A program made the translations under genes and the position numbers. From IMG/VR virus record IMGVR_UViG_3300027852_000062, positions 1 to 45,968 of that record: DNA of 45,968 bases; one strand, given 5' to 3'. Under the pieces are notes generated by a model. It saw only the letters and a program-made list of their open reading frames with translations, was not told the DNA's origin and did no database searches. Shown here one piece after another: positions 4,211-45,968 of this stretch. Source of the DNA: a virus. Every line of letters starts with the position of its first letter. Position 1 is the first letter of the stretch.

Positions 4211-4252
4211 GCTTTGTTAGCTTAGGTGCAGCCCATGGTCGAGGGCTGATGT

Positions 4253-4273
4253 GTACCTTATGCATGTAGGTAC
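4253..4273 (+). other. Constant-loop hairpin, copy 1
   Basis: GTACCT/AGGTAC forms a six-bp stem around the nine-base loop TATGCATGT. It is one of at least seven left-arm intergenic hairpins with this loop but different stems. The loop centre ATGCAT is self-complementary, so two such loops could kiss. A second TATGCATGT at 4305-4313 lies in a larger loop without its own direct stem. Confidence 0.7.
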
Positions 4274-4845: not shown

Positions 4846-6675
4846 ATGCAAAAGAGAAAACCTGTGGCTATCTCTGATCAGAGTATCAAGCCACTTGTAA
4901 GTTCCATAGTGGGGGCTAGAGCTGGTAACCCTACCCTTCACGAAAACGTATACTCTTTGGAGAGTAGAGTAAAGCAACACCTTCTGACTGAAGCTACCAG
5001 CAATCTGATAACTCCAATGTTACAGTTAGGTGGTGAAGGGAAGGGACCTCCAAAGAGAGTGTTGCTCCAAGACTTGTGTCCAAAGCTATGGTCTTGGTTC
5101 GACAGTAACTGTAGTACATACGGCTTTGTTCCTTTACATAGAAAGGAACACTATATGCCTACTAGGGGCAATGGAAAGAGAAGGGATGTTAAAAGACCTG
5201 ACATCGTACCTCGCCCTGACCATGTAGCATATCGTTATCGTTGTTGTAATAACTTCAACGAGAAACAAAAGGTACTCAACACTAGGAGCATCTTGCAAGA
5301 CAGTGATGAGTACTTCATAGAGCTTCTAACTACATGGCATAAAAACCGTTGGTTCGAAGTGTTAGGCAGAGGCGGTAGGTTGGATGTGTTGTCTCCTAGT
5401 GAGAGTACACACCTTAAGGTGCCTACTAACAATGCAATGGAAGAAGATCACTCTCGTGAGATCGGAGACAGTACCTCAGTACCTCAGTACTGGGATATTG
5501 GGTATGATGATGACGTAGAAGAGATGCCCTTTGAACCAACATCGGTTGATGAGGAACTCAAGATATACTGCGCATTACCAAACGATAAAGAGTCTATCGT
5601 AAACGATATGTTCTTTAACAGTAGTAACGATGAAGACGTAGGAGAACTCCAAAGCTTCTACCCTGAGGTACAGAAGCAACGTCTTGAACGTCAACGTAAG
5701 CTATCTAAACATCATTACTTCAAGAGGAAGAGAGGAGCTATGGCAGGCTTCACATCTTATCTTGTTAGTCTCAAGCCTAAGTATAAGAAGCACTCTGTAA
5801 ATATAACTACAAAGTACTCCGAAGACATGAATACTAGTAGGGTATACCCTGAATTAGATGATAGAGACTACACTAGCAGACACTCACCTGCTAATGTAAC
5901 TGTACCATTGGACCTACACCCTACTATGTTCATAGGCTATGAGATCGGTGACTCTACCCCATACTACCACAACAGGCTACATCTAAACGGAATACTAGGT
6001 ACCTCTGAGAAGAGATTTAATACTCCTTTATATGAAGCAAGAGAAGGTATATGGGCTAATAGGCACCGGCTAGCAAGACAAAGAGGGATACAAAGCTTGT
6101 CATCCTACCTGTCTACTCTTAAATCTAATGGTGTTAGCACACGTTGGAAGCTCAAGAATGTGCCTAGTATCGTTAAGCTGTTAAGCTTTATTGATAGTCT
6201 CAGCAAAGGTGTCCATAAGTCTAAGGCAGTAGAGAAGGTATCAGAAGGGATCTTCTCTAAGGTTATCGATAAGCATGGTAACCACCTAGACTATGCTACA
6301 CCGTACTCTGATGGTCATTTACTGTTCCAAGCTGTAAGGTATAGAGCTTCACAGGATGAGGTCGTTAAGGCTGCTGTCTCTACGATAGCAACCAATGCAA
6401 TCAGAAGAGTACAAAGGAAAAGAATACCATCTTCTTTGGAGGTGGACAATCTGGATCTGTTCAAGAAGAGGAGTAACTCCTTTACTAAACAGATATACAT
6501 AGAACCAATAGACGATGGTTCTCAAAAAGATAACGTCATTATGACTCTCGATAAGGAGAGTAACCTATCAGCTAACCAAGCTATAGTGCAAGAGGTGATG
6601 AAAGATCCTGACCTCTTTAATCAAGTAATGGATCGTGTTAAGAAGTCTACTTGTCCAGCCTGTGGTAAGGTGTGA
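4846..6675 (+). CDS. Large orphan protein with C-terminal CPxC motif
   Basis: A 609-residue protein started at the ATG after AGGAGG, 19 codons inside the longest frame. I do not recognise a family. It is basic and hydrophilic, with Lys/Arg-rich stretches (near residue 110 and residues 285-310), an acidic middle (DDDVEEM near residue 220) and a C-terminal CPACGKV that looks like half a zinc knuckle. It has no Walker, nuclease or polymerase motif and no membrane span. It is by far the largest gene outside the replication and virion sets and is flanked on both sides by structured noncoding blocks, which suggests an RNA- or DNA-binding role. That is inference only. Confidence 0.75.
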   Translation: MQKRKPVAISDQSIKPLVSSIVGARAGNPTLHENVYSLESRVKQHLLTEATSNLITPMLQLGGEGKGPPKRVLLQDLCPKLWSWFDSNCSTYGFVPLHRKEHYMPTRGNGKRRDVKRPDIVPRPDHVAYRYRCCNNFNEKQKVLNTRSILQDSDEYFIELLTTWHKNRWFEVLGRGGRLDVLSPSESTHLKVPTNNAMEEDHSREIGDSTSVPQYWDIGYDDDVEEMPFEPTSVDEELKIYCALPNDKESIVNDMFFNSSNDEDVGELQSFYPEVQKQRLERQRKLSKHHYFKRKRGAMAGFTSYLVSLKPKYKKHSVNITTKYSEDMNTSRVYPELDDRDYTSRHSPANVTVPLDLHPTMFIGYEIGDSTPYYHNRLHLNGILGTSEKRFNTPLYEAREGIWANRHRLARQRGIQSLSSYLSTLKSNGVSTRWKLKNVPSIVKLLSFIDSLSKGVHKSKAVEKVSEGIFSKVIDKHGNHLDYATPYSDGHLLFQAVRYRASQDEVVKAAVSTIATNAIRRVQRKRIPSSLEVDNLDLFKKRSNSFTKQIYIEPIDDGSQKDNVIMTLDKESNLSANQAIVQEVMKDPDLFNQVMDRVKKSTCPACGKV

Positions 6676-7047: not shown

Positions 7048-7515
7048 ATGAAACACTCAGTCTATTACCCCCAGTCGATAGGAGGTGGAAGATTTATAGT
7101 GAGTGAACTTCGTTCTTTCTTAGGGTTTAAATGGTGGAGGCCTGTCCCTGATCTGTACATAGATTATGATAGGTTATTACTGGAAGAAAAAAACCTCAAG
7201 TTACAGTTAAAACGTAAAGGTGAGGAGGTGAAGAAAGAGAAGGAAGGTATTGAAAAGTTTGTTCAATATTCTCTGGCTTCGCATCAAGGATACTCTCGTT
7301 CATTATCCCCTAACAAGCGGAAGATAATGAGGGTTGGAACCAGTGAGATTGACTACCAAGAACTCTCTTTCTTAGATGAGAAGTCTGAGAAGAAGAGTAA
7401 CCCAAGAGAGCGAGGCCCTCCGACAGTTAGTGTGCATCATCCTTCTGATAATATCCAAAGTGCTGGTCAGAAAGGCAACCAAGGTAACAATCAGAAGGGC
7501 GGGAACAAGCAGTAG
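7048..7515 (+). CDS. Early protein with disordered Gly/Asn/Gln tail
   Basis: A 155-residue protein with a purine-rich AAGGAAAAGAG site. The N-terminal 50 residues look folded (KWWRPVPDLYIDYDRLL), residues 50-75 form a Lys/Glu-rich helix (KGEEVKKEKEGIEKF), and the last 45 residues are low-complexity and polar (GQKGNQGNNQKGGNKQ). It has no membrane segment or catalytic motif and no recognised family. Confidence 0.7.
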   Translation: MKHSVYYPQSIGGGRFIVSELRSFLGFKWWRPVPDLYIDYDRLLLEEKNLKLQLKRKGEEVKKEKEGIEKFVQYSLASHQGYSRSLSPNKRKIMRVGTSEIDYQELSFLDEKSEKKSNPRERGPPTVSVHHPSDNIQSAGQKGNQGNNQKGGNKQ

Positions 7516-7545
7516 AAATACTTACACACTATCTAGATATGATTG

Positions 7546-7564
7546 TACCTTATGCATGTAGGTA
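7546..7564 (+). other. Constant-loop hairpin, copy 2
   Basis: TACCT/AGGTA, extended by one G-U pair, surrounds TATGCATGT. It stands 30 bases after the stop of the 155-residue gene. Confidence 0.65.
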
Positions 7565-7762: not shown

Positions 7763-7861
7763 AGTAATGAGTGTCTTGCATTGTAGTATTATAACAGTAC
7801 TACAGGTGTGTACCATACGGTATGCATCCCTCTTGTTAAAAACTGTAAGGAAGGTAACACT

Positions 7862-8335
7862 ATGAAGAAGGTAAAAGAAGAAGCTAGTGACAGCAAGGAA
7901 GAAGGGTTACGGGATTATTTCAGTAAGCCCTTATTCATCATGCTGATGATATCACTGGTCCTCCTCTTAGCTATCAGCATTATTAACGATGTAGTAGCCG
8001 AAGAAGAGGGTACCCGAGCCGGTAATGTTGTTGACATTGTCGAGGTAGGTACAGCAGCTCCCGATGATAAACCTAACTGGGTTAAGGTAAAACTTAATGC
8101 AGCCTCGGATTACTTCAAAGCTAAATGGAAGACAGCGGATGAAGAAGTCGAGAGTAACTCTAAGGATGCTGAGACAGAAGCAGTAAAGTCTATTAGTATT
8201 GAAGAAGATGCTAGCGAAGCACCCTCTCCTGCTATCACAGTGGAAGAGCTTACTGTTGTACCTGTGGCTGAGCCTGTAGCTGTAGAGGTTGATGACTTCG
8301 CTGTAAAAAAGCGGCTCACGCTAAGCAAGAAGTAG
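7862..8335 (+). CDS. Type II membrane-anchor protein, frame 0 of a probable frameshift fusion
   Basis: In frame 0 this is a 157-residue protein starting after GGAAGG. A charged N-terminus is followed by one membrane span (about residues 24-42) and an acidic, Glu/Ala/Val/Pro-rich periplasmic stalk. The stop comes eight codons after A-AAA-AAG, a textbook -1 slippery heptamer (8305-8311). A -1 shift there replaces the last residues with the cell-wall hydrolase in the overlapping frame, giving a 287-residue membrane-anchored hydrolase. The unshifted product would be an anchor and stalk without enzyme. I infer a lysis or entry/peptidoglycan role from the partner. Confidence 0.75.
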   Translation: MKKVKEEASDSKEEGLRDYFSKPLFIMLMISLVLLLAISIINDVVAEEEGTRAGNVVDIVEVGTAAPDDKPNWVKVKLNAASDYFKAKWKTADEEVESNSKDAETEAVKSISIEEDASEAPSPAITVEELTVVPVAEPVAVEVDDFAVKKRLTLSKK

Positions 8336-8347
8336 AATGTTTAGCGT
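8305..8347 (+). promoter_or_regulatory. Probable -1 ribosomal frameshift signal
   Basis: The signal has the heptamer A AAA AAG in the correct frame (GTA AAA AAG), a six-base spacer, then a stem ACGCTAA (8318-8324) with TTAGCGT (8341-8347) around a 16-base loop containing the frame-0 TAG. Heptamer, spacer and stem match the layout of known bacterial -1 sites such as dnaX. The -1 frame has stops at 8290 and 8293 and no ATG or GTG before the hydrolase domain, so a shift is the simplest way to translate it whole. Confidence 0.8.
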
Positions 8348-8724
8348 TGAATGCTTACCATGAAGCGAGAGGAGAAGGCTTACCAGGTATTGTAGCTACT
8401 ATGCAGGTAGTGAACAACAGGTTGAGTATCAACTACCGAGGTGCCGTCTCACTTTGCGATGTTGTTGTTGCTAACAAACAGTTCAGTTGGCTGTATGATA
8501 GCAGGAAGGACATCGCAATGGATAAAGTATCTTATCAGATGATAGTAGGAGTTGCAAAAGGTTTTATCAGTGGTGACTACCCATTAGATATAACCAAGGG
8601 TGCTACTCACTATAGAGCAGAGAGTCTAAATGATTTCTGGTCTAGAGTCTCTGCTTATGACGATAGGATTAAAGTAAGGTTCACTAGTAAGATAGGAAAT
8701 CATATCTTTTACAAGTTTGATTAG
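8311..8724 (+). CDS. SleB/CwlJ-type cell-wall hydrolase, -1 frame
   Basis: Hydrolase_2 family. Hallmarks are CLALNAYHEARGEG at the N-terminus with the expected catalytic glutamate, then VVNNRL, KQFSWLYD, GATHYRA and the C-terminal IGNHIFYKF. The enzyme cleaves peptidoglycan. Read from the frameshift site it adds 137 residues (AAHAKQEVECLALNAY...). The only in-frame start is a TTG at 8347, which lies inside the conserved block, would remove CLAL and has no ribosome-binding site. I therefore regard it as the downstream half of a fusion with the membrane-anchor protein. It is probably the phage endolysin, tethered to the inner membrane. A hairpin (AGGGCTGT/ACAGCCCT) follows. Confidence 0.85.
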   Translation, partial: AAHAKQEVECLALNAYHEARGEGLPGIVATMQVVNNRLSINYRGAVSLCDVVVANKQFSWLYDSRKDIAMDKVSYQMIVGVAKGFISGDYPLDITKGATHYRAESLNDFWSRVSAYDDRIKVRFTSKIGNHIFYKFD

Positions 8725-8754
8725 GCTTACTTACAATAGTGTACACAAATAAGT

Positions 8755-8779
8755 AGGGCTGTCTGCACACTACAGCCCT
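8755..8779 (+). terminator. Strong hairpin after the hydrolase gene
   Basis: AGGGCTGT pairs perfectly with ACAGCCCT around a nine-base loop, 30 bases after the hydrolase stop. The following sequence (gctaactgaac) is not U-rich, so it may be a weak terminator or a 3'-end stabilising structure. Confidence 0.45.
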
Positions 8780-8811
8780 GCTAACTGAACATGACTAACG
8801 AGGATAGAATT

Positions 8812-9435
8812 ATGGGACTTTTTAGTAGAAAGAAAAAGGATAAGGTAGCTGAGGATATCAATATGATAACTCCTACTGTCATCTTCGATGATGAAGCAGC
8901 CTTTACTGTAGGAGACTATTTATCTCCAGACCCTGTGACTGATAATAGAACAGATGAACCCGATACAGTAGATAACCACCCCAGTCTAGATGGCTACTTT
9001 AGCCCATTTGATAGTGTCATACTCCATCAGATATCTATTACGATATACGAAGATAGTATGCCGTTCGTTGAGCACGATGAAAGAGTAGGGCAAGTCTACT
9101 CCTTAGTACGTCAAGGGTTAACAGGTTCATTAAAAGACCTGAGTGAAACATACACGGTAGATATAATACCTGTTAATCGTAACTACATTGCTCACGAACA
9201 CAAGATTAACCTGTGGCTATTGTCTTACCTCCTTGACATCAGAGCATCAGAGCTACATATGCATGGCTCTAACAGCTTCGACTACATAGTATATCTGAAA
9301 GAAGAAGTAGATATATCAATTAGTTCAAAAGGTTACAGCCTAATTGTAAAGCCTTTTGTATACGCTGAAGACGAAGAGGAGGTTGATGACGATGGCTATT
9401 CCACAATATCCACAAAAGTCGACGACAACTTCTAA
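8812..9435 (+). CDS. Acidic protein of unknown function
   Basis: A 207-residue protein. I start it at the ATG eight bases after GAGG (MGLFSRKKKDK...), seven codons inside the longest frame. A basic N-terminal tip is followed by a strongly acidic remainder (many D/E, ending EDEEEVDDDG). A central segment (residues 70-180) alternates hydrophobic and polar residues and may be an alpha/beta domain. It belongs to no recognised family. The end overlaps the next gene's start by about 50 bases. Confidence 0.7.
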   Translation: MGLFSRKKKDKVAEDINMITPTVIFDDEAAFTVGDYLSPDPVTDNRTDEPDTVDNHPSLDGYFSPFDSVILHQISITIYEDSMPFVEHDERVGQVYSLVRQGLTGSLKDLSETYTVDIIPVNRNYIAHEHKINLWLLSYLLDIRASELHMHGSNSFDYIVYLKEEVDISISSKGYSLIVKPFVYAEDEEEVDDDGYSTISTKVDDNF

Positions 9436-9682
9436 TAGTAGGAGAACAGGAGTACAAGAGTTCGTACCTCTAGATGACCAGACGCCTGCCTCCGTATGGA
9501 GGATAATCATCCTAGGTCTTGTTATATACTCGCTGATGTCCAGTGTGTGGGTATTCAGTGAGATGCCAGGTAACATTATAATCAACGGAGAAAACAATTG
9601 GTCATCAGATCAGACTTGGTATGCAGCTAGTCACTTCTGTTCTCTAGGTGTAGCTGCTCTCCTAGTCTGGTTGAAACGGTAA
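9386..9682 (+). CDS. Two-span membrane protein, holin-like candidate
   Basis: About 98 residues, starting inside the previous gene after GAGGAGG (ATG here or two codons later). Two hydrophobic segments are visible (about residues 40-58, WRIIILGLVIYSLMSS, and 80-96, CSLGVAALLVWL), joined by a polar loop and ending in KR. Size and two spans fit a class II holin. It is close to the hydrolase gene, which supports a lysis role, but this is inference. Confidence 0.6.
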   Translation: MTMAIPQYPQKSTTTSNSRRTGVQEFVPLDDQTPASVWRIIILGLVIYSLMSSVWVFSEMPGNIIINGENNWSSDQTWYAASHFCSLGVAALLVWLKR

Positions 9683-9691
9683 GTACCTTAC

Positions 9692-9719
9692 GATAGTGCA
9701 TTAGTAATAGTGTACTATC
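9692..9719 (+). other. Repeated intergenic hairpin, type 2, copy 1
   Basis: GATAGTGCA/TGTACTATC forms a nine-bp stem with one G-U pair. The preceding ccttac and following ttgag are shared with the copy at 10191-10219, so this family conserves stem sequence as well as shape. It lies in the gap before the lysine-rich gene. Confidence 0.55.
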
Positions 9720-9769
9720 TTGAGGGATAATACTGTCTCTCTATTATCTGAAACACTGAGGATAACACT

Positions 9770-10171
9770 ATGGGTTCACCTAAGAAAAAAATAGCGAAGA
9801 AGCATCCTAAGCCTAAGCGAGTCAGCTATGCTTATCGTGATTCTACTGGCAAGAAGGTATTGCTAAGCGTCAAAGAAGCACATGCTATAGCTAAGAAGAA
9901 GAAGGCAGAGTTAGCTGTAGCAGCTAGGAAGGATGCAGCTGACACTGAAATACGTAAGTTGAAAAGTGAAGGGGATGAGTACAAGTCTCTAGAAAGGTTA
10001 GAGAAGAGTCATATCCGTAGAGCTGAGAAGCTAGAACGTACTGACTATGGGCTTAGTAAGATGGTACTGAGTATGGGAATGCGTAAGGTAAAGTCTAAGA
10101 ATGAGAGGGCTGAACCTGCTAGTAAGGCTGCTTCTAAGATCATCAAGAAAAGGAAGAGGGCTAACTCCTGA
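9770..10171 (+). CDS. Lysine-rich basic protein, probable nucleic-acid binder
   Basis: A 133-residue protein with a GAGGA site. It is extremely basic: the first 20 residues hold SPKKKIAKKHPKPKR and the last ten are KKRKRANS-like, with a long charged helix between (residues 35-90). Composition resembles histone H1-like or phage DNA-binding proteins. It has no enzyme motif. Plausible roles are nucleoid remodelling or DNA/RNA binding. I infer this only from charge. Confidence 0.68.
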   Translation: MGSPKKKIAKKHPKPKRVSYAYRDSTGKKVLLSVKEAHAIAKKKKAELAVAARKDAADTEIRKLKSEGDEYKSLERLEKSHIRRAEKLERTDYGLSKMVLSMGMRKVKSKNERAEPASKAASKIIKKRKRANS

Positions 10172-12168: not shown

Positions 12169-12199
12169 CAGCTTATGCCTTATGCATGTAGGTAAGCTG
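12169..12199 (+). other. Constant-loop hairpin, copy 7
   Basis: CCT/AGG, a two-base bulge, then CAGCTTA/TAAGCTG surrounds TATGCATGT. It stands 18 bases after the stop of the 90-residue gene and directly before a 15-bp perfect hairpin. Confidence 0.7.
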
Positions 12200-27583: not shown

Positions 27584-30500
27584 TATAAATTCTCTTGTTC
27601 TACTCTCTCTGTGTTAGCACTCTCTAGTGCTTTACCTTGTTCTATACGTAGTCTAGTTGCTTTCTTATCTTGTAAGAAGAAAGTATTAAGAGCCTCTGTA
27701 ACTAATGGGCTACTATAATCTAAGTCTCCACTGGACAGAGCACTTACTAAGTCCTTCCCAAACTTATCTGTAGCTAGCTCGTTGCTATCACCTTTACGAA
27801 GCTTCATCATATGCTTGTTTATGATAGTAAACTCTTTGTCAGTGTACAGCCACTTAAGTATCTCTCTAGTACTCTTGATCTTACTGCTAAATTCATCTAG
27901 GCTACCTGTAGGGTTAGCCTTGACCTTAGCTATCAATGCCTTATCTAGCTTATATACAGTTCTAGCTACTGATCTCAGATCGTCACCTACAGGAGAAGTT
28001 ATCCTTCCAAAACCTGTACCTTTTATCTTCCTGCTTAAGACCTTTACTTCCTCAAGCTCTCTAGGAGGAGCACCAAGCCCTGCATTGAGTAACATCTCAT
28101 TCCAAGTAAGTACTATCTGAGGGTCTCCATAACTATTAGCTAATACTCCAGCTTCAAGTGACAACCTTGCAGTAAAGTACTTGTCTAATTGAGGAGCTAA
28201 GCTTAGAGCTTCTTCTAAGATAAGCCTCATCTTACTAGGATCTGTCTTATCTAGATCAACCCCACCTGCTAGCCAAGCCATAGTAAGAAGAGACTTACCT
28301 AGATCTGAAGTAGCATTTATACCTGGTGGCATTAAGTCTTGGGATATCTTTAAGTAGTTACCTTGTGTTAAATCATAGAAAGCTGTAAGAGTTTTATGAA
28401 GAGGAGAGTTACCGCCAGTAGCAACTGCACTAAGTGGAGCTATTCCTTTAGATACCATGGAGTGAGACTCATCTTCCTCTGAAGTAGCTAGGTCCATAGC
28501 GTATACTAGTGCTGTTGATACTAATCCTTCCTCTATGTTCTCTCTAAGCTCTACACTTTCAGTACCTAGTTCTATTCCTGCATTATTTATGATGTAGTCT
28601 ACTGTTTCTTTTACAAACGGTATACCTACTGTTCCATATAATAGGACTTGAGTGGCAGCTAACCTTCTTTTCTCTCTATTTGTAAAAGCTTTATTAGCTA
28701 CCCCACTCAAGAACCATTTATCAGGGATGACAGCCTGCATTGCCTTGTGAGAGTGAGATAAGAACTGGAAGAAGAACCCTAAGCCACCTTTCTGAAGTGC
28801 AGTAGCTCCAGCTTGGCTCATGTTTAAGGTTAACTCTCTAGCTTCTCCAGCTATAAAGTCTAAATTATCCTTCTTCATCCATAACTTCTTAGGATCACCC
28901 TTCCCAGTGTAGTTTCTAATCCATCTCTCTCTGGCTAGGAGGAAACCACCTGCCCCGATGTTAACTCTTTCTCCTGTACCGAAACCTATGTCCCTTGATA
29001 CTCTAGCTGTACTCTTGAGCATTTCAGCTGTGTCTCTAAGGACACCTGTGAGCATATTTCCACCACCTATTGAAGGGGTAAGAGCCATGTTAGCTGTATA
29101 TACATGAGATTCTACTGACTGATGTAAGCCTGTCCTATTGTAAGCATCTAAGAAAGCTTCATACTCTTTGACATCCATGTCCATAGCCTTGGCTAACTTA
29201 GGTGCCATTACATTCCAAGTACCAGAGCCTCTTTTCATGCTAAGCCCAGTGAAGAGCCCCATAGCATCCTTTAGGCCTTGGTTAGCAAAGTAAGAAGCTC
29301 CATGCTCCATGCCTAGTGCCATAGATGCAGTGTTACTTTGCATCCAAGCTTGCTTAACAGGCATAGCTACTATGTATCTTAAGAAGGCTATGTTCTTAGC
29401 TACCCTTATAGGGTGAGCAATAGGAGAATCTTTAAGACCTATGATCTTAGCAGCTACTGAGTTCCAGTATTCTCCTCCATCTACAGTCTTATCTGCTAGC
29501 CACTCTGAACCTCTTACAAATAGCAGCTCATTTAGCTTCTCTACCTTAGTATTATCAGTGCCCATTAGGAAGTTTATCCTGTCCTGTAAAGCAACTGCAT
29601 CATTTTTAGCTCTCCGAAGTGATAGCTCAGCAGGCTCAGGTATCTTCCCTGTACCTGGGAACACCCTAGGTCCATTCTCTACCTGTATAACACCGAAGTC
29701 CTTAGCGTAGGTGTTCTCCCACCTCTGTATCAGAGACTCTATAAGATCATCCATTGATACATGCTTAGATACGTTATCTATTGCTAAGGAGATAGACTCA
29801 CCTAGGTCTTTTACTACCCTTTTACCAGCAAAGTTCCTAAGTTCTTCGGGTCTTCTAGATGAGGTGAATATCTGACCTCTATCATGGTAGTACTCAGCTG
29901 ATACTCCTCTAGCATAGTCTACATTCTGTATCTCACTAGACCTTTCAGACTTAAAGATACTCTTAGCAGATAGATCAGATTCAAATACCTCATTTAAGCC
30001 TGCATTTATACTAGCTCTCTCGTTTAAGATTCTAGCAGCTGCACTAGCTGACCTAGGATTATTCTCAAGTGTAACTACCCTGCTCTTAACAGTCCTTACA
30101 CCGTCCTCTATGACTTGATAGTACTCTCTGACTAGATGAGTAGCTTCATGTATCCTTGTACCGTACCCTTCAACAGTCTTAAGTACTACCTCTGGTAGAT
30201 TTGATATACTGTCACCAGAAGACTTCTTAATAATAGCATGAGTTGAAGTTCTACCTGAGTCTGTACCTCTAGGAAACTTTAACTTGACTATTTGTGAGCC
30301 ATCAGCATATAAGCTATCAACAAGACCTGGAGTAAGATCTACTATAGCACCAGTATCAGGATCATATGCATTCCTTACTGCCCTTTGTATATGAGGCTTC
30401 AGGATAGTCTTACCTATTAACTGCTCTGGAATAGCAGGTTCTGTTTCTGTACCTTCTTTACTCTTTCTAGGCCTAGTAGATATGGTTACATTCTTATAGC

Positions 30501-32520
30501 CTTCATTCTCAAGGGAAGTTCTAATCCTGTTATTATTAAGATTGAACATCTCCCTCTGGAACTCTCGATAGGAGTGATATGCAGCTACTAGCTTCTTACT
30601 TCTCTTGCTGTCCCTGTCTATCCCTTTCTCATGGAACCTATCTTCTAGTTCTTTAGTTGAGAACCACTTACCAATAGACCCATCTTCGTTTCTATATAAA
30701 GAACCTTCGTCTATTACGCTTAGTACTGGCCTCTGATTCCAACTATACATCTTAGTAAGAGGTCTCATCATAGCGTGGAGATCAGATTTAATCTTATCTG
30801 ACGTATCTCCAGCCCTATTAATAGCCTTAACTACCCAACCATTGAATACTGTAGAGATATCTAAGTACTTAGCACCTTCCCCTGAAGTACCTACTGTATC
30901 TCCTTCTACAAACTTGAGAGTATCGAACTTGTTATAGTGATGTTCTACTCCAAGAGTAAAGATATAGTCATCTGCTATATTATTATCACTCAGTATCTTA
31001 AGTGTATCCTTGTTTAGAGCTGTATACTCACCTTTTACCCTATCAGCTCTGTAAATAGTAGTCTCAGCACCTGCTAAGTTCTCTAAATACTGCTCAGCTA
31101 CATGCATAGCCTCGTCTACAGTGTCAAAACCTTCATCACTAGTCCTACCTATCGCAACTTGAGCTTCAAATCCACCAGTTATAGGTCTAATCTTGGTCTT
31201 ACTTATCAAAGTAGTACCTGTAAACTCTTCTAAGTAGCTTACTCGGTCTTTATAGTCTAGTTGGGCTGAAGTTTTCTCTGATTCAGTGTAATTTATACCG
31301 TGTGTATTCTCACCTAGCTCTTGTTTTACACGATTACCTATAGCATCTGCATCGATATCAGTACCTAGCCTTATTTCTGAACCATCAGGCATAGGTAGCA
31401 TCTTATCTAAGACTATATCTTCCTTAGTAACTCCTAGGGATGCAAGTAACTCTTCATCTTTAGTCTTAACTGTAGCTACTAGGACTTCTTTAGTAGCTTC
31501 AGGGTCTACTTTATCCATCAAAGCTATAGCAGTGTCAGGTTTAATACCTCCACTTGCTAGTCTAAGACTCTTAATAGCTCTAACTCCACTACTAACAGCA
31601 CTCCCTAAGAGAGGCACTATGTCTACAGCAGCTATAAGATTACTAAGTATCTTATCATTTTCTAACTCATCTGTAGTAGGATCAGCGTTCCTTACTAATA
31701 TCTCTAAGAACTCCTTAGCTACCATATTGTCTTCTACTAAGAAGCCACTATTCTCTTCTACTAAGCTACCTAGCCTTTGTACTATCTCTAGCTTCTCCTC
31801 TACAGTAGCATTATCATAGTTAGATCTGAACTGTTTTACTACTTCACCTGGTAAAGCTTTATCCCAGAGAGATGTACTACCAGGGTTCATATCTTCTACA
31901 AGGTTTGATAGAAGTACACCCCATCCTGGAGCCATAGAAGATACAAGGAACCTAGCAGAGTTCTCTATAGGCTTATCACTGACATGCCCAAGCTTAACTC
32001 TTTGGAGGTCTACCATTCTGTTGATTAGCTTCTGCTGTTCAACTACCTCACCTGCATCTTTCATAAGTAAGAACTTCTTCTTACCTACTTTCATGTTAGC
32101 CAGGTCTTTGTAGACTAGGATCTCTTCAAGTGTAGCCTTAGGTCTCTTCTTCTTCTGGTCTTCAAGCTCTTTAAACTCTTGCCTAATCTCTTCATCAGTC
32201 TTAGGCAGGCCAGTAGAAGAGCTGAGTGCTAAGTTCTTAGCTACTTGAATGTCTATCTCTTCTTGTTCAGCTTTCTCTTCCTCATCTATTAACTCAAGGA
32301 TAGGGCTTGTACCGTTAGCCATAAGGTCAGACTTGATCTTACTATAAGTAGCAGGCAAGTCTTCCTCTTCACTCACAAGCGCACCTAGAGAAGCCTTCTT
32401 CTCCATAAGCCCATTAGCCATAGGAACAGGTCTATCATTCCCAGACAGGAGGTAGTCATCTAGAGCTGCGTTAGTCAGCTCTTCTTCTGTATTTAATGTA
32501 TCTGAAGTAAGTCTAGTCAC
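27583..32520 (-). CDS. Giant internal virion (ejection) protein, gp16-like by position
   Basis: 1645 residues, starting at GTG overlapping the preceding TAG. It is the largest gene and longer than T7 gp16 (1318). The N-terminal half is charged and helical; I see no lytic transglycosylase motif where T7 gp16 has one. Near residue 790 is TRIHEATHLVREYY, an HExxH zinc-protease-like motif. The C-terminal third has moderately hydrophobic segments (KGGLGFFFQFLSHSHKAMQ and LLYGTVGIPF). It is probably ejected into the cell at infection to form part of the DNA conduit. Confidence 0.72.
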   Translation of the reverse strand: MTRLTSDTLNTEEELTNAALDDYLLSGNDRPVPMANGLMEKKASLGALVSEEEDLPATYSKIKSDLMANGTSPILELIDEEEKAEQEEIDIQVAKNLALSSSTGLPKTDEEIRQEFKELEDQKKKRPKATLEEILVYKDLANMKVGKKKFLLMKDAGEVVEQQKLINRMVDLQRVKLGHVSDKPIENSARFLVSSMAPGWGVLLSNLVEDMNPGSTSLWDKALPGEVVKQFRSNYDNATVEEKLEIVQRLGSLVEENSGFLVEDNMVAKEFLEILVRNADPTTDELENDKILSNLIAAVDIVPLLGSAVSSGVRAIKSLRLASGGIKPDTAIALMDKVDPEATKEVLVATVKTKDEELLASLGVTKEDIVLDKMLPMPDGSEIRLGTDIDADAIGNRVKQELGENTHGINYTESEKTSAQLDYKDRVSYLEEFTGTTLISKTKIRPITGGFEAQVAIGRTSDEGFDTVDEAMHVAEQYLENLAGAETTIYRADRVKGEYTALNKDTLKILSDNNIADDYIFTLGVEHHYNKFDTLKFVEGDTVGTSGEGAKYLDISTVFNGWVVKAINRAGDTSDKIKSDLHAMMRPLTKMYSWNQRPVLSVIDEGSLYRNEDGSIGKWFSTKELEDRFHEKGIDRDSKRSKKLVAAYHSYREFQREMFNLNNNRIRTSLENEGYKNVTISTRPRKSKEGTETEPAIPEQLIGKTILKPHIQRAVRNAYDPDTGAIVDLTPGLVDSLYADGSQIVKLKFPRGTDSGRTSTHAIIKKSSGDSISNLPEVVLKTVEGYGTRIHEATHLVREYYQVIEDGVRTVKSRVVTLENNPRSASAAARILNERASINAGLNEVFESDLSAKSIFKSERSSEIQNVDYARGVSAEYYHDRGQIFTSSRRPEELRNFAGKRVVKDLGESISLAIDNVSKHVSMDDLIESLIQRWENTYAKDFGVIQVENGPRVFPGTGKIPEPAELSLRRAKNDAVALQDRINFLMGTDNTKVEKLNELLFVRGSEWLADKTVDGGEYWNSVAAKIIGLKDSPIAHPIRVAKNIAFLRYIVAMPVKQAWMQSNTASMALGMEHGASYFANQGLKDAMGLFTGLSMKRGSGTWNVMAPKLAKAMDMDVKEYEAFLDAYNRTGLHQSVESHVYTANMALTPSIGGGNMLTGVLRDTAEMLKSTARVSRDIGFGTGERVNIGAGGFLLARERWIRNYTGKGDPKKLWMKKDNLDFIAGEARELTLNMSQAGATALQKGGLGFFFQFLSHSHKAMQAVIPDKWFLSGVANKAFTNREKRRLAATQVLLYGTVGIPFVKETVDYIINNAGIELGTESVELRENIEEGLVSTALVYAMDLATSEEDESHSMVSKGIAPLSAVATGGNSPLHKTLTAFYDLTQGNYLKISQDLMPPGINATSDLGKSLLTMAWLAGGVDLDKTDPSKMRLILEEALSLAPQLDKYFTARLSLEAGVLANSYGDPQIVLTWNEMLLNAGLGAPPRELEEVKVLSRKIKGTGFGRITSPVGDDLRSVARTVYKLDKALIAKVKANPTGSLDEFSSKIKSTREILKWLYTDKEFTIINKHMMKLRKGDSNELATDKFGKDLVSALSSGDLDYSSPLVTEALNTFFLQDKKATRLRIEQGKALESANTERVEQENL

Positions 32521-32927
32521 TATAAACGTGGACCTATAGTTGATGCTAGTTTAGAAAGAGAGCTGAAAGTGTCTGCATTAGCTTGACTCTTAGTAGCTTT
32601 CGTAAGAGATGAAAACCTCTTCTGATCTAAACTTTGTAACTGTCTTTGGAAACTTTCATTACTAGTTAACTGTGTTTGAATAGAGGATGTTATACCTGAC
32701 AACGAGGAGCTACCTAGAAGGCCCTGAGAGGCCCCTGAAGCGACGTTAGCAGCAGTAGCTACCTTTGCCTCTGCTCTAGACTTACGCCTCGCACGGGCGT
32801 TCTGAATGGCTGCTGCTCTCTCTTGAGCCCTGTTAGCCCTTACAGTCTCTTTACGAGCTTTCCTCTGCTCACTTATGCCTAGTATGCTTGAAGCTCCAAC
32901 TAGAAAAGGTGTTACTGGATCTCCCAT
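32520..32927 (-). CDS. Internal virion protein, T7 gp14-like by position
   Basis: 135 residues beginning GDPVTPFLVGASSILGISEQRKARK: a short apolar segment, then a long Ala/Arg-rich helix (RANRAQERAAAIQNARARRKSRAEAK). This is the usual look of gp14-type ejection proteins in T7-like phages. It lies directly upstream of the giant internal protein. The start shares bases with the preceding stop. Confidence 0.68.
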   Translation of the reverse strand: MGDPVTPFLVGASSILGISEQRKARKETVRANRAQERAAAIQNARARRKSRAEAKVATAANVASGASQGLLGSSSLSGITSSIQTQLTSNESFQRQLQSLDQKRFSSLTKATKSQANADTFSSLSKLASTIGPRL

Positions 32928-33238
32928 TATCTAATCTCCGCTGTCCATATCTCGTAGCCGTCTGTACAGTCTAACTCTTTCTTTCCGCTGTAACATTTTA
33001 TAAATTCTTTTAAGGTCTCATTATCTTCTTCGACTAGGCCTGATACTTCTGTAATACCATTAGCTAGTAGATACTCTTGTAACCCGATCCAAGTCTTCAT
33101 TACTTGGTCTCTGGTATTCTCATCTTTCTTAAGGATGTCTATGTGTAAGAAGTATCTTTCACCTACTAGTTCTAGTGAGAACTGTACGTAGTCATTCTTA
33201 TACATAGCTTCCTCACTATAATGAACTGTTCCCTTCAT
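32927..33238 (-). CDS. Small protein with acetyltransferase-like end
   Basis: 103 residues. The part LLANGITEVSGLVEEDNETLKEFIKCYS resembles the C-terminal half of GNAT acetyltransferases as seen in T7 gp13-like proteins. The N-terminal half could hold strands but lacks a clear acetyl-CoA loop. In T7, gp13 is encoded between the tail tube and internal proteins, the same place as here. It overlaps the tail tubular B gene by 23 bases. Confidence 0.5.
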   Translation of the reverse strand: MKGTVHYSEEAMYKNDYVQFSLELVGERYFLHIDILKKDENTRDQVMKTWIGLQEYLLANGITEVSGLVEEDNETLKEFIKCYSGKKELDCTDGYEIWTAEIR

Positions 33239-35582
33239 AAGTTACATCCCAGCCTAGTAGTATTAAGTCTTTATCTGTCTCAGTATCAAATCTGAATTGA
33301 ACAGCCTTACCGTGTCCTCTAACTTTATTCTTAGTAGAGATTACAGTGTACCCATAGTCAAAAGGAGTAGCTGCACTGGCAGGTATGTACACTCTTCTTA
33401 ATCTGTAAACTTGTTGTTGAGAGGACCACTTGTTAGCACTGTTGTCATCTGTCCAGTCCCACTTAGCTCTCATCTGACATCCACTCTGATTAGAGAGTAT
33501 CACTCCGCCAGAGCCATTGTCTTCATATCCATCTTCTGTTCTCTCAAAGTGAGTTACTACCCATAGTGCATTCTTCTTTCTAGAGGAGTCACCTAGTGTC
33601 TCATAGAAAGTCTCTATGTGCCCATCTCCTGTGTAAGAAGATCCTTGTAGCTGCCCCCAGTTTACAAAAACATTAGTACCGTCGACATTTGAGTTAAGAT
33701 ACTTAATACCGTAGCCTTCTTTACTTATTAAAGCTGCTGTATTGATCTCATAGGGTGTACTTGGAAGTGATATCCTATAGAAACTCTGTAAGTCTATATC
33801 GTACACTAGAGCTGATTTCATAAAGCTAGGATTATCAAGGAATAACTCTCCTCCGTAGCCCCACAGTATCCTGTTATTATGTTCATCAAACACTCCCTTA
33901 GCATCATACTTAAGGTGATGGAAGAGAGCAGAGCCTGTACCAGTAGCTGAAGACTCACTCTTATTCAGATAGTAGTTATTTATTCTATTCTCTGAGATGT
34001 TTGTAACCTGTAAGGAGATCGTATCTTCTGATAGTGTTATAGCTATGATACCTGTAGAGGACCAGTATAGTACTGCCTGAGGAGTCACTACTACAGTCTC
34101 TTCCCCTAGTACTCCTTCACTAGTAATCTTACTAACATTAACATCTGTTGGAGTAAATCCAGACTGGCCACCAGAGATATACCATACACCGGTAGTACTA
34201 AAAGCTAGTACACCACTTCTGAAAGGCACTATCTTCTTTATAGTCCCTGCATCAGATATGACTAACTCTCCACCATCTGTAGCTAAAAGAGCATTGAAGT
34301 CTTCAGCTGTAGGGTCTTGCTGTTGGTAGCATCTCCCAGCTAGTACTGGATCTTCTATAAGAACCTGAGAGAATAGTACTTTATTAGAGTTAATATCTGA
34401 ATCTGTACCTGCCCACCACACTCTACCAAATGCAAAGGTTGTAGTAGAAGGTCTCCTAGTTCCATCTGTAGTAGTATCAACTGTAGCTGTACCTCCTACA
34501 GTAAAGACATTGTGTCCACCAAACGTTATATAGGACTGCCTGTCCCTGAGGAAAGGACTTATTATAGCGCTCCCATTAGGAGCTAAGCCTGTACCGAAGT
34601 GTTGCTTATCAAGTAGAACAGGGTCAAACACATCACTAGTATCCTTGCCTAATACCCATACTTTAGTGTTGTCAGGTTCTACCCCTCTTTCTACAGTGTA
34701 CTTAGTAATCTCAGTAGGAGTCCATCCTTGGTTAATAAGGTTATACAAATGATTATTCTTAGAGTCAGATACATAGTCTGCCATCACAGGAGTATACGTC
34801 TGTATAGAGCCTGTAGCTCCAGAGGTTCCACCTGTTACAGTAGCTCCTAGTGTAAAGACATTAGTAGCTGTTACCCTGAGGATACTGTTTGTAGCATCCC
34901 AAGACACTACAGTTCCACTGTTACCACCTTCAGTAACAGTCTCTGCTACACTGTAAGTACCTGTAACACCTGTAAGGAATAAGAACTGGTCTCCACTGTA
35001 GACTGCATCTCCATCTATACCTAAACCATCATCTACTCTGTTAAAGTCTCTTACTCTTAAGTTCAGAGGTGTAACAGTGAATGTAGTAGCTCCATCCCAT
35101 GAGATATAAGAAGGAGTTATAAACTTATTAGCTATAAACAGCTTACCTTGTCCAGAAGAAAATTGAAGAGTCTCATTAACATAAGACGAACTAGTTAGAA
35201 CTGTTGATAGTGACAGCTGTCCTATGTAACCTGCTTCTACATCTATGTCATCCGATAGGATATTCAAGTCATAGAACATTAACGTTCCAGCTACTCTGAC
35301 TACTGCAAAGGAAGTATCTCCTTCACCATTAGGAGCTTTCCAAACGTAAGCACTAGTCTTTTTAGAAGAACTAATAAGCTTATGTCCAGATGACAGCTCA
35401 CCAGTATCTCTAACAGCAGAAGCCTCAACTGAATGTCTAGATCTCTTAACCTTACCAGACTTCTCTATGACCATGTCTAAGATATCTGTAACAGTATTCT
35501 CAGGCATATTCAAAGGACTAGAGTCAGTGTTAAGCCCTGCTGTAAAGTCTCTGTATTGTTTTGTCTCTGTAGCTCTAGGCAT
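33216..35582 (-). CDS. Tail tubular protein B, T7 gp12 type
   Basis: 788 residues (T7 gp12 is 794), beta-rich throughout. It begins with the typical RDFTAGLNTDSSPLNMPENTVTDILDMVIEKSGKVKRSR, in which the protein's polypeptide enters the nozzle propeller fold. It forms the distal tail nozzle. The gene order tail A, 73-residue protein, tail B, internal proteins matches T7-like phages. The start overlaps the preceding gene by eight bases. Confidence 0.9.
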   Translation of the reverse strand: MPRATETKQYRDFTAGLNTDSSPLNMPENTVTDILDMVIEKSGKVKRSRHSVEASAVRDTGELSSGHKLISSSKKTSAYVWKAPNGEGDTSFAVVRVAGTLMFYDLNILSDDIDVEAGYIGQLSLSTVLTSSSYVNETLQFSSGQGKLFIANKFITPSYISWDGATTFTVTPLNLRVRDFNRVDDGLGIDGDAVYSGDQFLFLTGVTGTYSVAETVTEGGNSGTVVSWDATNSILRVTATNVFTLGATVTGGTSGATGSIQTYTPVMADYVSDSKNNHLYNLINQGWTPTEITKYTVERGVEPDNTKVWVLGKDTSDVFDPVLLDKQHFGTGLAPNGSAIISPFLRDRQSYITFGGHNVFTVGGTATVDTTTDGTRRPSTTTFAFGRVWWAGTDSDINSNKVLFSQVLIEDPVLAGRCYQQQDPTAEDFNALLATDGGELVISDAGTIKKIVPFRSGVLAFSTTGVWYISGGQSGFTPTDVNVSKITSEGVLGEETVVVTPQAVLYWSSTGIIAITLSEDTISLQVTNISENRINNYYLNKSESSATGTGSALFHHLKYDAKGVFDEHNNRILWGYGGELFLDNPSFMKSALVYDIDLQSFYRISLPSTPYEINTAALISKEGYGIKYLNSNVDGTNVFVNWGQLQGSSYTGDGHIETFYETLGDSSRKKNALWVVTHFERTEDGYEDNGSGGVILSNQSGCQMRAKWDWTDDNSANKWSSQQQVYRLRRVYIPASAATPFDYGYTVISTKNKVRGHGKAVQFRFDTETDKDLILLGWDVTYEGNSSL

Positions 35583-35796
35583 TTTTAGCTTTCTTCTTAG
35601 ATAGGTTAGCTATGTAACTCTCAGCCCTAACCTTTAACATCTCTAAATTATTCCAAGGGTCTCTTAACTCTGAAGGTATCTCTCCACCAGTGCTATATTG
35701 AAGTTGGAACATGTTAGTCATTGTGTCTCTTACAATCTGTAACTCTTTACCAGCATCAGTAACACCTACTGTAAGTTTAAACTGTTGATCTTCCAT
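35575..35796 (-). CDS. Small protein between tail tubular A and B
   Basis: 73 residues (VGVTDAGKELQIVRDTMTNMFQLQYSTGGEIPSELRDPW...) with a Lys-rich end. It overlaps the end of tail tubular A by 20 bases and the start of tail tubular B by eight. Small proteins in this slot occur in SIO1-like podophages. Function is unknown; a virion assembly or tail component is likely. Confidence 0.68.
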   Translation of the reverse strand: MEDQQFKLTVGVTDAGKELQIVRDTMTNMFQLQYSTGGEIPSELRDPWNNLEMLKVRAESYIANLSKKKAKNA

Positions 35797-36532
35797 ACTT
35801 AGCCCTTGTGTCTACACTCTCTGTACGTCTAGCTTGCTGCCTAAGAGTAGCCTTTCCTCTCCTAGCTTGTTCTTCTGCTATCGGTGAGAGCTGTTGTCTT
35901 AGTTCTTGATGAGCTATCCTCTTTACCTCTGCAAGGTAAGAAGGGAAGAACCTCTGATCCATATCAGGAATAGAAGTGTTAGTATTAACCCATATTGGTA
36001 GTTCATAAAATAAGCATTTAGTTTTACTACTCTGTAAAGTAGTATCCTCAGCTACATTGTAAGAATCAAAGACTATTAAATCATTATCGAATGATGTCCA
36101 ATAAGTAGGAAAGAGATCATTCTTAATGAACATTACTGTACTGTTATCAGTAGTTACAGTTGTTACATCTGAATCACCAGACTTATTAGTATCTAAATTC
36201 TCTATAAATGTACTTGGATCTTGATATTCTATAGTCTTGAATGTTCTATTTGTATCCCCAAGCTCTGTTACTTCGTATTTAATCTCTTCAATACGGTATA
36301 CATTAGATGGAAGTTGCATGTAGTTAGGTCTAGATACATCACCTAGTGCACTAAGTACTCCATCCTTAAATAGGTGGGGCCATTCAGACTGTGCCATTAA
36401 GTTCAAGTACGCTTCTTTTGCTATAAGCGCTACTTGTGTAGACTCAATGGTATCATTAATATCGTTGACTTCATCAGAACTCATACTTGAAAGTACTGAT
36501 TGTACGATTTCTAATAGTGTCATTGTTGCCAT
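35777..36532 (-). CDS. Tail tubular protein A, T7 gp11 type
   Basis: 251 residues (T7 gp11 is 196). Typical family features are an N-terminal helix (LEIVQSVLSSMSSDEVNDINDTIESTQVALIAKEAYLNLM), then SEWPHLFKDGVL and a beta middle, and a C-terminal helix rich in Arg/Gln. It forms the upper ring of the tail below the portal. AAGGTAA precedes the start, with two close ATGs; I use the first. A hairpin (GAGGGGTA/TACTCCTC, one mismatch) lies in the gap before it. Confidence 0.85.
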   Translation of the reverse strand: MATMTLLEIVQSVLSSMSSDEVNDINDTIESTQVALIAKEAYLNLMAQSEWPHLFKDGVLSALGDVSRPNYMQLPSNVYRIEEIKYEVTELGDTNRTFKTIEYQDPSTFIENLDTNKSGDSDVTTVTTDNSTVMFIKNDLFPTYWTSFDNDLIVFDSYNVAEDTTLQSSKTKCLFYELPIWVNTNTSIPDMDQRFFPSYLAEVKRIAHQELRQQLSPIAEEQARRGKATLRQQARRTESVDTRAKYGRSTV

Positions 36533-36606
36533 TTCAATATGTTACCTTATTTAGATATAAGAGGAGTAAATAAATACCCCTCCTATAAAATTCCTAATAC
36601 AAGTAA

Positions 36607-37110
36607 TTATGTAGTAGGAGCCATATACTCGATAATCATTCGAGCTTTACCAGCAGTAAACGTACCTGTAGCTGCAACTTGAAGTTGAGCAGGAGACGTT
36701 ACAGCGATATCTAGAGCGTTACCAGAATTACCACCACCATGAGTTCGAGAAGATCTCCACTCACCGTCAGCATTAATTTCAGCAGTTGCTAAAGCATCAA
36801 ACAATTTATCTTCACCAGTCCCGATTGCACCACCAGCGGTAGTAACAAGATCGATGTCATATGAAGTACCACCAACAAATGCAGTGATAGTTTCAAAGTA
36901 GCAATCCTTGATAAATGCATTATCAGGGATAAGCTTTTCCATCTGACCTAGACCAGATACAGGAAGATCATCGTAAGAGAAGGTCCATTCAGTCTGACGG
37001 ATTACACCTTCAGTCTTAGGATCTGCACCAAACTTATCATCTACTTCACGAGCGTTATAATGGTTCCGTACTACATCACTAGTATTGGCCCAGTTGCTTT
37101 CATGAGACAT
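36607..37110 (-). CDS. Capsid-associated (decoration or stabilisation) protein
   Basis: 167 residues, beta-rich with a Gly/Ala/Thr-rich second half (FVGGTSYDIDLVTTAGGAIGTGEDK...). It directly follows the capsid gene after 12 bases with an AGGGGA site, so high expression together with the capsid is likely. Proteins in this place are often head decoration or head-fibre proteins. The fold is not identified. Confidence 0.65.
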   Translation of the reverse strand: MSHESNWANTSDVVRNHYNAREVDDKFGADPKTEGVIRQTEWTFSYDDLPVSGLGQMEKLIPDNAFIKDCYFETITAFVGGTSYDIDLVTTAGGAIGTGEDKLFDALATAEINADGEWRSSRTHGGGNSGNALDIAVTSPAQLQVAATGTFTAGKARMIIEYMAPTT

Positions 37111-37121
37111 ATCTGTTCCCC

Positions 37122-38069
37122 TTAGTAAGTAGTATCATCAGTTAATAGAATACCAAGCGTATCAAGACGCTGAGCACCAAAACCAAATCTGGAAGTAACA
37201 TCGAACTCATCACGCTTGTTCTTCATGTTTCTTTCAGTTTCAACTTTAGGCTGTTGTCTCCATGCACGCATGATAGGCTTAGTCTGATCATCTAGTACTG
37301 ACATGAATACGTTAGCTACGCCACCAGTAACTGTGACAGAGTCAATAGTCTCAGTGATAGAGCGAACTAGTCGGTTAGAAGTCCAGATATCCCATCCAAA
37401 GATGTGAGCTACGAATTTATGCTCTTGAGCAAAACCTTCGTTAACCATACCTTCGAAGTGGATGTTGTTATCGATAGAAGTAGTAGTAGAAAACAACCCG
37501 TTAAGAGTAGCTTCAACAACTGGATCAACGATAGCGATACGACCTGCTTGAGGTACATTAGCTTTATCGAAAGAAAGCTTCATGTCACGGAAGTCATCAA
37601 GTGCAACAATCTGACCAGTGCCAGAAGCTACGAAGCGATGCTTAAATCCATTAACATTGTTAAGAGCAGACGCAGTCTGTGAGCTATTACATACGTTTAA
37701 GAAACGAGTTTCTACACGTTCTTGTAGAGCACGAGTACTCTCCATGGCTCGCATTGACTGCATTTGATCTAATTGAGAACCATCCATTCGAAGTACATCT
37801 GAGATATACCATGCATCACCGATGTAATCAGTGATAGACAGTGTTACAGTTCCAGTATCAATTGCTTGATAAGATAATGGAGTATCTTCTTGAACGTCTT
37901 GGATTGTAGCGGAACCAACAGTTTTAATGTTTAGTGTAGTACCAGAACCGAAGTCTGATACATCGCGAGTCCAATTATCAGGAAGTAACCCATCATGCAG
38001 GTTCTGCAATATGAACTGAGAATACTGTTGTGCTTCTATAAAAGCAGCAGTATTGCTAGTAATTTGCAT
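37122..38069 (-). CDS. Major capsid protein
   Basis: 315 residues, the size of HK97-fold capsid proteins in T7-like phages (T7 gp10A is 345). It begins with ITSNTAAFIEAQQYSQFILQNLHDGLLPDNWTRDVSDFGSGTTLNIKTVG, typical for this family in SIO1-like phages, and ends RFGFGAQRLDTLGILLTDDTTY. An AAAGGAAA site and the position between scaffold and tail genes support it. No frameshift to a longer form is visible at its 3' end. This stretch also looks closer to even base use than the neighbouring genes, as expected for high expression. Confidence 0.92.
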   Translation of the reverse strand: MQITSNTAAFIEAQQYSQFILQNLHDGLLPDNWTRDVSDFGSGTTLNIKTVGSATIQDVQEDTPLSYQAIDTGTVTLSITDYIGDAWYISDVLRMDGSQLDQMQSMRAMESTRALQERVETRFLNVCNSSQTASALNNVNGFKHRFVASGTGQIVALDDFRDMKLSFDKANVPQAGRIAIVDPVVEATLNGLFSTTTSIDNNIHFEGMVNEGFAQEHKFVAHIFGWDIWTSNRLVRSITETIDSVTVTGGVANVFMSVLDDQTKPIMRAWRQQPKVETERNMKNKRDEFDVTSRFGFGAQRLDTLGILLTDDTTY

Positions 38070-38088
38070 TGTTTATTTTCCTTTAAGG

Positions 38089-38826
38089 TTAACCAAACTG
38101 GTTACCTTGTTCCATTTGTTTCTTAACAATATCTCCAGCTGCTCTCCAGTTAGCTTGTACATCCTTGGTAGTTGAACCAAACATGACACTCTTAGGTGCA
38201 GTAGGTACTTGAGAATTGTTAAAGTTATCAATTGCTTGAGTGTTGAGTGACCCTTGAGTTGAAGAGTTACCAGGTTGTATACTTTTATTCGCTTCCATTA
38301 GCTTTATGGCTGCAGTAGGATTGCTTCTAGCTAAGGTGTCAATATCTTCTACTGACATCCCTAGCTCAATTGCTTTCCCTTGAAGTATATCTAGGTACTT
38401 ATCTTCTCCGTAGGAGTCAATCATTGCAGACTTTACTTTAGAAAAGTTATCTGCATAGGTAGAATCTAATCTTTGTTGTTCTAAGTCTTGCTTAGTTACA
38501 AAGCCTTGATCCCTCAAGTCATCAATATTCATCGGACTGTTCGGTTCTTGTTGTCCCGTATCTTCTATCTGACTTGTGTTGAGTCTAGAAAGTAAATCTT
38601 CTATCTTATCATTAGAGTCTGTCTGCTCTCTTAAGACTTTATTCTCATTTTTGAGTGTTTCAATAAAGTCTAGTTGGTCATCCAATCTCTTCTGTACTAT
38701 AGATAATTGCCCTTCAATGCTCTTCTTATCTACAGAGCTTTGTTGGTCTTGCTCTGTGAAAGAAGTCTCACCTGCATCTTTAGTATCGTTACCTTTGTCT
38801 TGTACGAAACTACTTTGTTCTGTCAT
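38089..38826 (-). CDS. Capsid assembly scaffold protein
   Basis: 245 residues, acidic and helical, with a coiled coil around residues 40-75 (IVQKRLDDQLDFIETLKNENKVLREQ) and a Gln/Asn-rich end. Composition and position (between portal and capsid, as T7 gp9) identify it. It guides prohead assembly and leaves before DNA packaging. It overlaps the upstream 92-residue gene by 17 bases. Confidence 0.85.
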   Translation of the reverse strand: MTEQSSFVQDKGNDTKDAGETSFTEQDQQSSVDKKSIEGQLSIVQKRLDDQLDFIETLKNENKVLREQTDSNDKIEDLLSRLNTSQIEDTGQQEPNSPMNIDDLRDQGFVTKQDLEQQRLDSTYADNFSKVKSAMIDSYGEDKYLDILQGKAIELGMSVEDIDTLARSNPTAAIKLMEANKSIQPGNSSTQGSLNTQAIDNFNNSQVPTAPKSVMFGSTTKDVQANWRAAGDIVKKQMEQGNQFG

Positions 38827-39088
38827 TACTCATATCTCTTATTGTTAATAGCTGAATTACTTCGGTCAGTGCTCTCTTATACCCATTAGCATCTGCTTGC
38901 TTGTATGCCCAAGCAGGAGATGTATATGATTCTACAGACTTAATAGCCTTATCACATGTGGATAGTTTATCACTAAGAGCATTAGCTATGACATCTAGTA
39001 ATTCAGTGTTAGAGTCATAGCTGGCATAAAATACATTCTTACTCTCTGGAGTTGAGAGTACTCGTTCATACGCTGAGTTGGTCCACAT
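38810..39088 (-). CDS. Hypothetical protein between portal and scaffold
   Basis: 92 residues, helical, no recognised motif (VIANALSDKLSTCDKAIKSVESYTSPAWAYKQADANGYKRAL). It overlaps the portal gene end by 23 bases and the scaffold start by 17, so its translation is coupled to head genes. It may be a head-assembly accessory. Confidence 0.7.
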   Translation of the reverse strand: MWTNSAYERVLSTPESKNVFYASYDSNTELLDVIANALSDKLSTCDKAIKSVESYTSPAWAYKQADANGYKRALTEVIQLLTIRDMSNDRTK

Positions 39089-42674: not shown

Positions 42675-42685
42675 ACTATCTTCTT

Positions 42686-43237: not shown

Positions 43238-43280
43238 CTACTATTTCCTTCCTTACTAGTCAAATTTATCTTCTAACTTC

Positions 43281-45884: not shown

Positions 45885-45968
45885 TACAATAATAATTACG
45901 TATAAAGGATGAATAATCATGCGGCCTGTAGCTCATTCCTTGACCAATGTGACCATAATTGTCACTTA
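45833..45968. repeat. Terminal direct repeat, right copy
   Basis: This matches the first 136 bases of the window except at base 45842. It carries the last boxes of the palindrome array and one of the GTGAC-N7-GTCAC operator sites (45949-45965), so joining the ends yields one continuous control region between the divergent arms. Confidence 0.9.

Follow-up and report, generated by a model that had tools for sequence, protein, structure and literature searches.

Organization of the locus

Two overlapping reading frames occupy the plus strand of a 45,968-base phage sequence (IMG/VR virus record IMGVR_UViG_3300027852_000062), which was analysed over its whole length and is here called the window. 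The first, in frame 0, encodes a predicted membrane anchor; the second, in the -1 frame, encodes a predicted cell wall hydrolase. The features of the locus and its flanks are the following:

7048–7515, plus strand: upstream neighbour of 155 aa, function unassigned (ORF list; no Pfam match)
7847–7854, plus strand: good Shine-Dalgarno sequence AAGGAAGG, 7 nt before ATG7862 (from sequence)
7862–8335, plus strand: frame-0 ORF of 157 aa, with a short N-terminus, one membrane segment and an Ala/Val/Glu/Pro-rich linker of about 110 aa (ORF list)
7934–7984, plus strand: core of the membrane segment, residues 25–41 (hydropathy maximum of 3.09 over 17 residues)
8285–8288, plus strand: GAGG, a possible internal Shine-Dalgarno stimulator (from sequence; its distance lies at the outer limit of the useful 6–17 nt)
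8305–8311, plus strand: slippery heptamer A_AAA_AAG, in frame 0 of ORF 7862–8335 and inside the 13-codon overlap
8311–8724, plus strand: part of the -1 frame read after a shift, 137 aa, SleB/Hydrolase_2 domain with a YHEARGE motif (PF07486, phrog_938, model and fold)
8316–8350, plus strand: downstream hairpin in its extended form (-11.5 kcal/mol; equalled in 1 of 200 shuffles)
8318–8327/8338–8347, plus strand: perfect 10-bp core of the hairpin (-10.8 kcal/mol; equalled in 0 of 200 shuffles)
8333–8335, plus strand: frame-0 stop codon TAG, within the hairpin loop (from sequence)
8347–8349, plus strand: TTG, the one codon in the hydrolase frame that resembles a start, rejected as such (upstream homology; helix 1 cut)
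8791–9435, plus strand: downstream neighbour of 214 aa, function unassigned (ORF list; no family match)
9386–9682, plus strand: small membrane protein, a possible holin judging from its position (part of a listed ORF; no family match)

The two ends of the window carry a near-identical direct repeat of 136 bases (1–136 and 45833–45968, 99.3%), and L086, a second contig from this phage, crosses the joint of these ends. Therefore, the record is probably a complete phage genome, although it is linear according to IMG/VR. The gene set includes a primase-helicase, a DNA polymerase, a terminase, a head-tail adaptor, a capsid protein and an internal virion protein, and the terminase has its best matches in the oyster-associated phage GX1-k141_326647 (48.7%) and Vibrio phage ICP2 (44.8%). 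On the basis of this gene content and these matches, we mark the source as a podovirus-like phage. The frame-0 ORF lies about 4.3 kb upstream of the primase gene; for an upstream ORF of 628 aa the search returned no relatives. A repeat of 17–26 bases, possibly a phage promoter or operator, is found outside the main ORFs at 4247–4272, 7540–7564 and 12178–12194, one copy being about 300 bases upstream of the lysis gene. Promoter and terminator scans of the window gave results at chance level, with the hairpin at the joint of the two frames absent from the terminator-like sites, and an Rfam search yielded no match.

A predicted SleB-type hydrolase in the -1 frame

The open stretch of the hydrolase frame spans 8296–8724, and two consecutive stop codons (TGA TGA) lie just upstream at 8290–8295. 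Its product matches PF07486 (5.3e-12; 46.7 bits against a curated cut-off of 27) as well as the endolysin family phrog_938 (1.8e-16). An alignment of 70 sequences revealed that the Y-x-E-A-R and C-terminal H motifs, which are invariant in the family, are both present in the window hydrolase; the Glu of Y-x-E-A-R is presumably the catalytic residue, as in SleB. The AlphaFold model of the hydrolase part (pLDDT 88.5, pTM 0.84) places Y16-x-E18-A-R on a predicted helix 1 (residues 2–19). When the model was submitted to Foldseek, only SleB (4fet, 4f55) stood above noise in the PDB, and many SleB-type phage proteins were matched as well. The predicted model shares its fold with the SleB catalytic domain of Bacillus (TM-score 0.64–0.67), and the sequence profile is shared, too (5e-18); unlike the phage hydrolase, however, SleB of Bacillus is a bacterial spore enzyme. 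Judging from profiles and predicted fold, the -1 frame domain is a SleB-type cell wall hydrolase, for which peptidoglycan cleavage is predicted. The 157-aa anchor alone, on the other hand, gave no PHROG or Pfam match, and a comparison with 85 loci returned its self-match only.

The start of the hydrolase frame

Ahead of the YHEARGE motif, TTG8347 is the only ATG, GTG or TTG codon of the hydrolase frame, and no ATN or NTG codon precedes it. Ribosomes that re-initiate there after the frame-0 stop could in principle make a separate hydrolase, since the TTG is only 11 nt past the stop codon TAG and coupled re-initiation is common in phages. Several lines of evidence speak against such a start. No Shine-Dalgarno sequence precedes TTG8347, and homology extends upstream of it: when 12 residues upstream of the TTG were added to the query, the match to Klebsiella phage MW713578 rose from 79 to 90 bits. 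C10 and A12, which are located ahead of the TTG (residue 13) and would be lost by starting there, are at least 90% conserved in the 70 aligned sequences, and predicted helix 1 would lose 11 of its 18 residues as well. Moreover, we inspected 166 relatives (80 viral, 80 genomic and 6 others), three of which are cut by contig ends and were set aside. Not one of the 163 uncut sequences lacks an in-frame start at least 10 codons before YxEAR, and no relative starts as late as TTG8347. TTG8347 was thus rejected as the hydrolase start, and we regard re-initiation at this codon as very improbable. The original prediction had named this TTG as the sole candidate, inside the domain and devoid of a ribosome-binding site, and had concluded that the frame has no usable start; the homology, the helix and the relatives all agree with it. 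Since none of the uncut relatives is without an upstream in-frame start, the window gene is an outlier among them, and its missing N-terminus would naturally be supplied by the frame-0 ORF.

Anchor and enzyme in relatives

An export segment was called in the relatives where 17 residues reached a mean hydropathy of at least 1.6. Among the uncut relatives, such an in-frame N-terminal signal or membrane segment is present in 42 of the 78 viral and 58 of the 79 genomic sequences, and 29 of these 58 genomic sequences have at least 100 residues ahead of the motif. The architecture of the proposed shifted product, a membrane or signal segment followed by a linker and a SleB domain, is therefore found in many relatives in one frame. 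It is important to note that 36 of the 78 viral relatives have no clear export segment; therefore, the family can do without an anchor, and soluble forms are common.

A PF07486 search of 50 related viral records, many of which are fragments, gave two positives, G007 and G019. The primase of G007 is 64% identical to the window primase. Its Hydrolase_2 gene (L336:5869–6351) belongs to the same family and has an N-terminal export segment, as in the window fusion. The G007 contig begins within its primase gene; on a circular reading of this contig, the hydrolase gene precedes the primase gene by about 5.3 kb, a position comparable to that in the window. Whereas the window has an anchor with a long linker and, in a second frame, the enzyme, the G007 gene is a single reading frame with a short signal peptide. 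The neighbours of the G007 gene are placed comparably to those in the window, with no detectable similarity, and a 220-aa ORF takes the place of ORF 7048–7515. Because the TTG is not credible and the syntenic G007 gene encodes signal peptide and enzyme in the same frame, anchor and enzyme most probably belong to one protein, be it through a frameshift or as a gene split by an indel.

The same split gene is carried by no relative found. Searches of viral contigs yielded no close relative of either the hydrolase or the anchor, and searches of phage records yielded none of the region or the anchor. A candidate second case, H2 (MW202701, L168), was rejected as a mis-annotation: an in-frame ATG and a signal sequence lie upstream. 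The annotated 'lytic transglycosylase' of this record (L168 1399–1839) begins inside its own SleB domain.

Candidate frameshift signals at the joint

The joint shows two elements of a programmed -1 site, an X_XXY_YYZ heptamer in frame 0 inside the overlap and a hairpin within 4–10 nt downstream, which in this case starts 4–6 nt past the heptamer. According to PMC4066793, A_AAA_AAG ranks in the top three -1 heptamers of E. coli for efficiency once stimulators are present, and the stimulators considered are hairpins beginning 4–10 nt past the motif and internal Shine-Dalgarno sequences at 6–17 nt. The same heptamer drives the dnaX frameshift (PMC3711429). No convincing Shine-Dalgarno sequence was seen upstream of the heptamer. 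The original prediction had placed A AAA AAG in the correct frame, followed by a 7-bp stem (ACGCTAA/TTAGCGT) enclosing the frame-0 stop. Both the heptamer and the position of the stop in the loop were confirmed; the 7-bp stem is present (8318–8324/8341–8347), but it is actually part of the longer 10-bp stem. The frame layout likewise agrees with the proposed products, which, as predicted from the frames, would comprise 150 + 137 = 287 aa after a shift and 157 aa otherwise.

The sequence A6G occurs three times in the record (both strands). Within 49 hand-picked ORFs, no in-frame A_AAA_AAG other than that of the joint is present, and X_XXY_YYZ was found in frame at 9 of 13,068 codon positions. 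For the 13-codon overlap, 0.0039 occurrences of A_AAA_AAG would be expected by chance (any X_XXY_YYZ, about 0.9%), a perfect 10-bp stem starting 4–10 nt on is found at 210 of 36,068 genic positions (0.58%), and 1.5% of 4,616 genic 40-nt windows fold as well as the joint, although these are post hoc numbers that flatter the joint because the feature was chosen by eye. Over 59 nt the folding signal is weaker (z = -1.74; 11 of 200 shuffles as good).

Programmed frameshifting versus indel

We lean towards the interpretation that both ORFs form a single endolysin gene, whose expression involves programmed -1 ribosomal frameshifting. Translation would begin at ATG7862 and yield the membrane anchor and the linker. 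At A_AAA_AAG, with the assistance of the hairpin 4–6 nt on, a fraction of the ribosomes would slip back by one base into the -1 frame. The slipped product of 287 aa would be tethered to the inner membrane and would cut peptidoglycan in the periplasm by means of its SleB-type (Hydrolase_2) domain, whereas non-slipping ribosomes would soon stop and release the 157-aa anchor without enzyme. For the slippage itself, its efficiency, the membrane topology and the role in lysis, this scheme states what we infer.

A serious contender, albeit a less probable one, is an ordinary single-frame gene for a membrane-anchored endolysin that was interrupted by the insertion or deletion of one base within the A6 run, arising either from faulty sequencing or assembly or from a genuine mutation of the sampled phage. 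All 163 uncut relatives have the gene in a single frame, and the A6 site is known from one sequence alone. Indels favour homopolymers, and therefore an A6 run is to be expected under this explanation as well. A look-alike also points in this direction. Scanning for A6G 30–60 nt before a YHEA motif yielded 43 stretches, nine of which were recognized by eye as SleB-type hydrolases. In one of these nine, L365, an A6 run separates a SleB gene without a start from a signal-peptide ORF (4990–5495). Since the secretin gene of the same contig is split over three frames (8234–9948), L365 probably bears indel errors, and it was rejected as a second frameshift case. With its Zot-family and secretin genes, this contig is filamentous-phage-like.

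Other observations argue against an indel. When the 948 ORFs of relatives were compared with the window, 350 matched, covering 15 genes in part or as a whole, and none of these was split between frames. Contig L086, which does not reach 8305, is free of homopolymer indels over 29294–45968, a stretch of 16.7 kb that has only four runs of six or more. Its differences from the window consist of N letters, N-flanked extra bases and one substitution near the window start. The N-flanked extra bases (L086 643–652) lie inside the viral contig and, judged by eye, resemble Illumina adapter. Furthermore, an indel leaves the correctly spaced hairpin unexplained, a feature of only 0.58% of genic positions, and phages abundant enough to be assembled should seldom carry a true lysin null. 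Because the 15 genes compared with relatives show no other frame break and L086 has no homopolymer indel, yet the site itself is known from one sequence, we consider programmed frameshifting somewhat probable and still grant the indel a substantial chance.

Slippage of the RNA polymerase on the A6 run could also produce the fusion by way of a mixed mRNA pool. A runs are known to feed some bacterial genes in this manner, but those quoted in PMC3711429 have more than 7 A, compared with 6 here. The hairpin would be irrelevant to such a process, which we deem very improbable.

If programmed frameshifting is real, the locus would offer a clean case of slippage determining whether or not a lytic enzyme is attached to a membrane anchor. 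If the gene was broken by an indel, it illustrates the ease with which a break in a homopolymer mimics a frameshift signal. Conceivably, though this is unlikely, the slip rate in this Gram-negative podovirus sets the share of anchors that bear SleB, and the bare anchors act as a spacer, a competitor or a membrane sensor that times lysis; a short product that tunes or inhibits lysis, and with it the originally suggested built-in ratio of enzyme to inhibitor, is speculation.

Comparison with known systems

Known phage frameshifts mostly yield tail chaperones or capsid variants. SAR endolysins have a weakly hydrophobic, Gly/Ala-rich N-terminal segment that is able to leave the membrane. The segment in the window is very hydrophobic (3.09) and, judging from its sequence, resembles a permanent anchor. 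With the signals of the dnaX and IS911 type the window shares A_AAA_AAG, a hairpin a few nucleotides downstream and a stop shortly after; it differs in that a clear internal Shine-Dalgarno sequence is missing, the product is a phage lysis enzyme and the slippage is predicted.

PMC10885494, which cites Shearman et al. 1994, names lysins among the genes known to contain a frameshift. Judging from the title of the study by Shearman et al., its lysin is encoded over two overlapping frames, as here, but by a phage of a Gram-positive host. In the Alteromonas podovirus vB_AspP-H4/4, a -1 slippery site has been proposed at the overlap of the endolysin and an internal virion protein (PMC5658483). This virus thus resembles the window phage in being a podovirus and in having an endolysin gene for which a -1 site was proposed. 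There, however, translation without a shift yields the endolysin and the shifted product is the virion protein, whereas in the window the shift would make the enzyme (PMC5658483). In view of the listed lysins, the original claim that no endolysin was known to be made in this way was too strong. Among the papers listed in our searches, no description of a SleB-type endolysin made by frameshifting came up. Because of the lysins named in PMC10885494 and the vB_AspP-H4/4 case, the frameshifted phage lysin is a kind already known; as far as our searches show, the new element, if real, would be a SleB enzyme that is joined to a membrane anchor by the shift.
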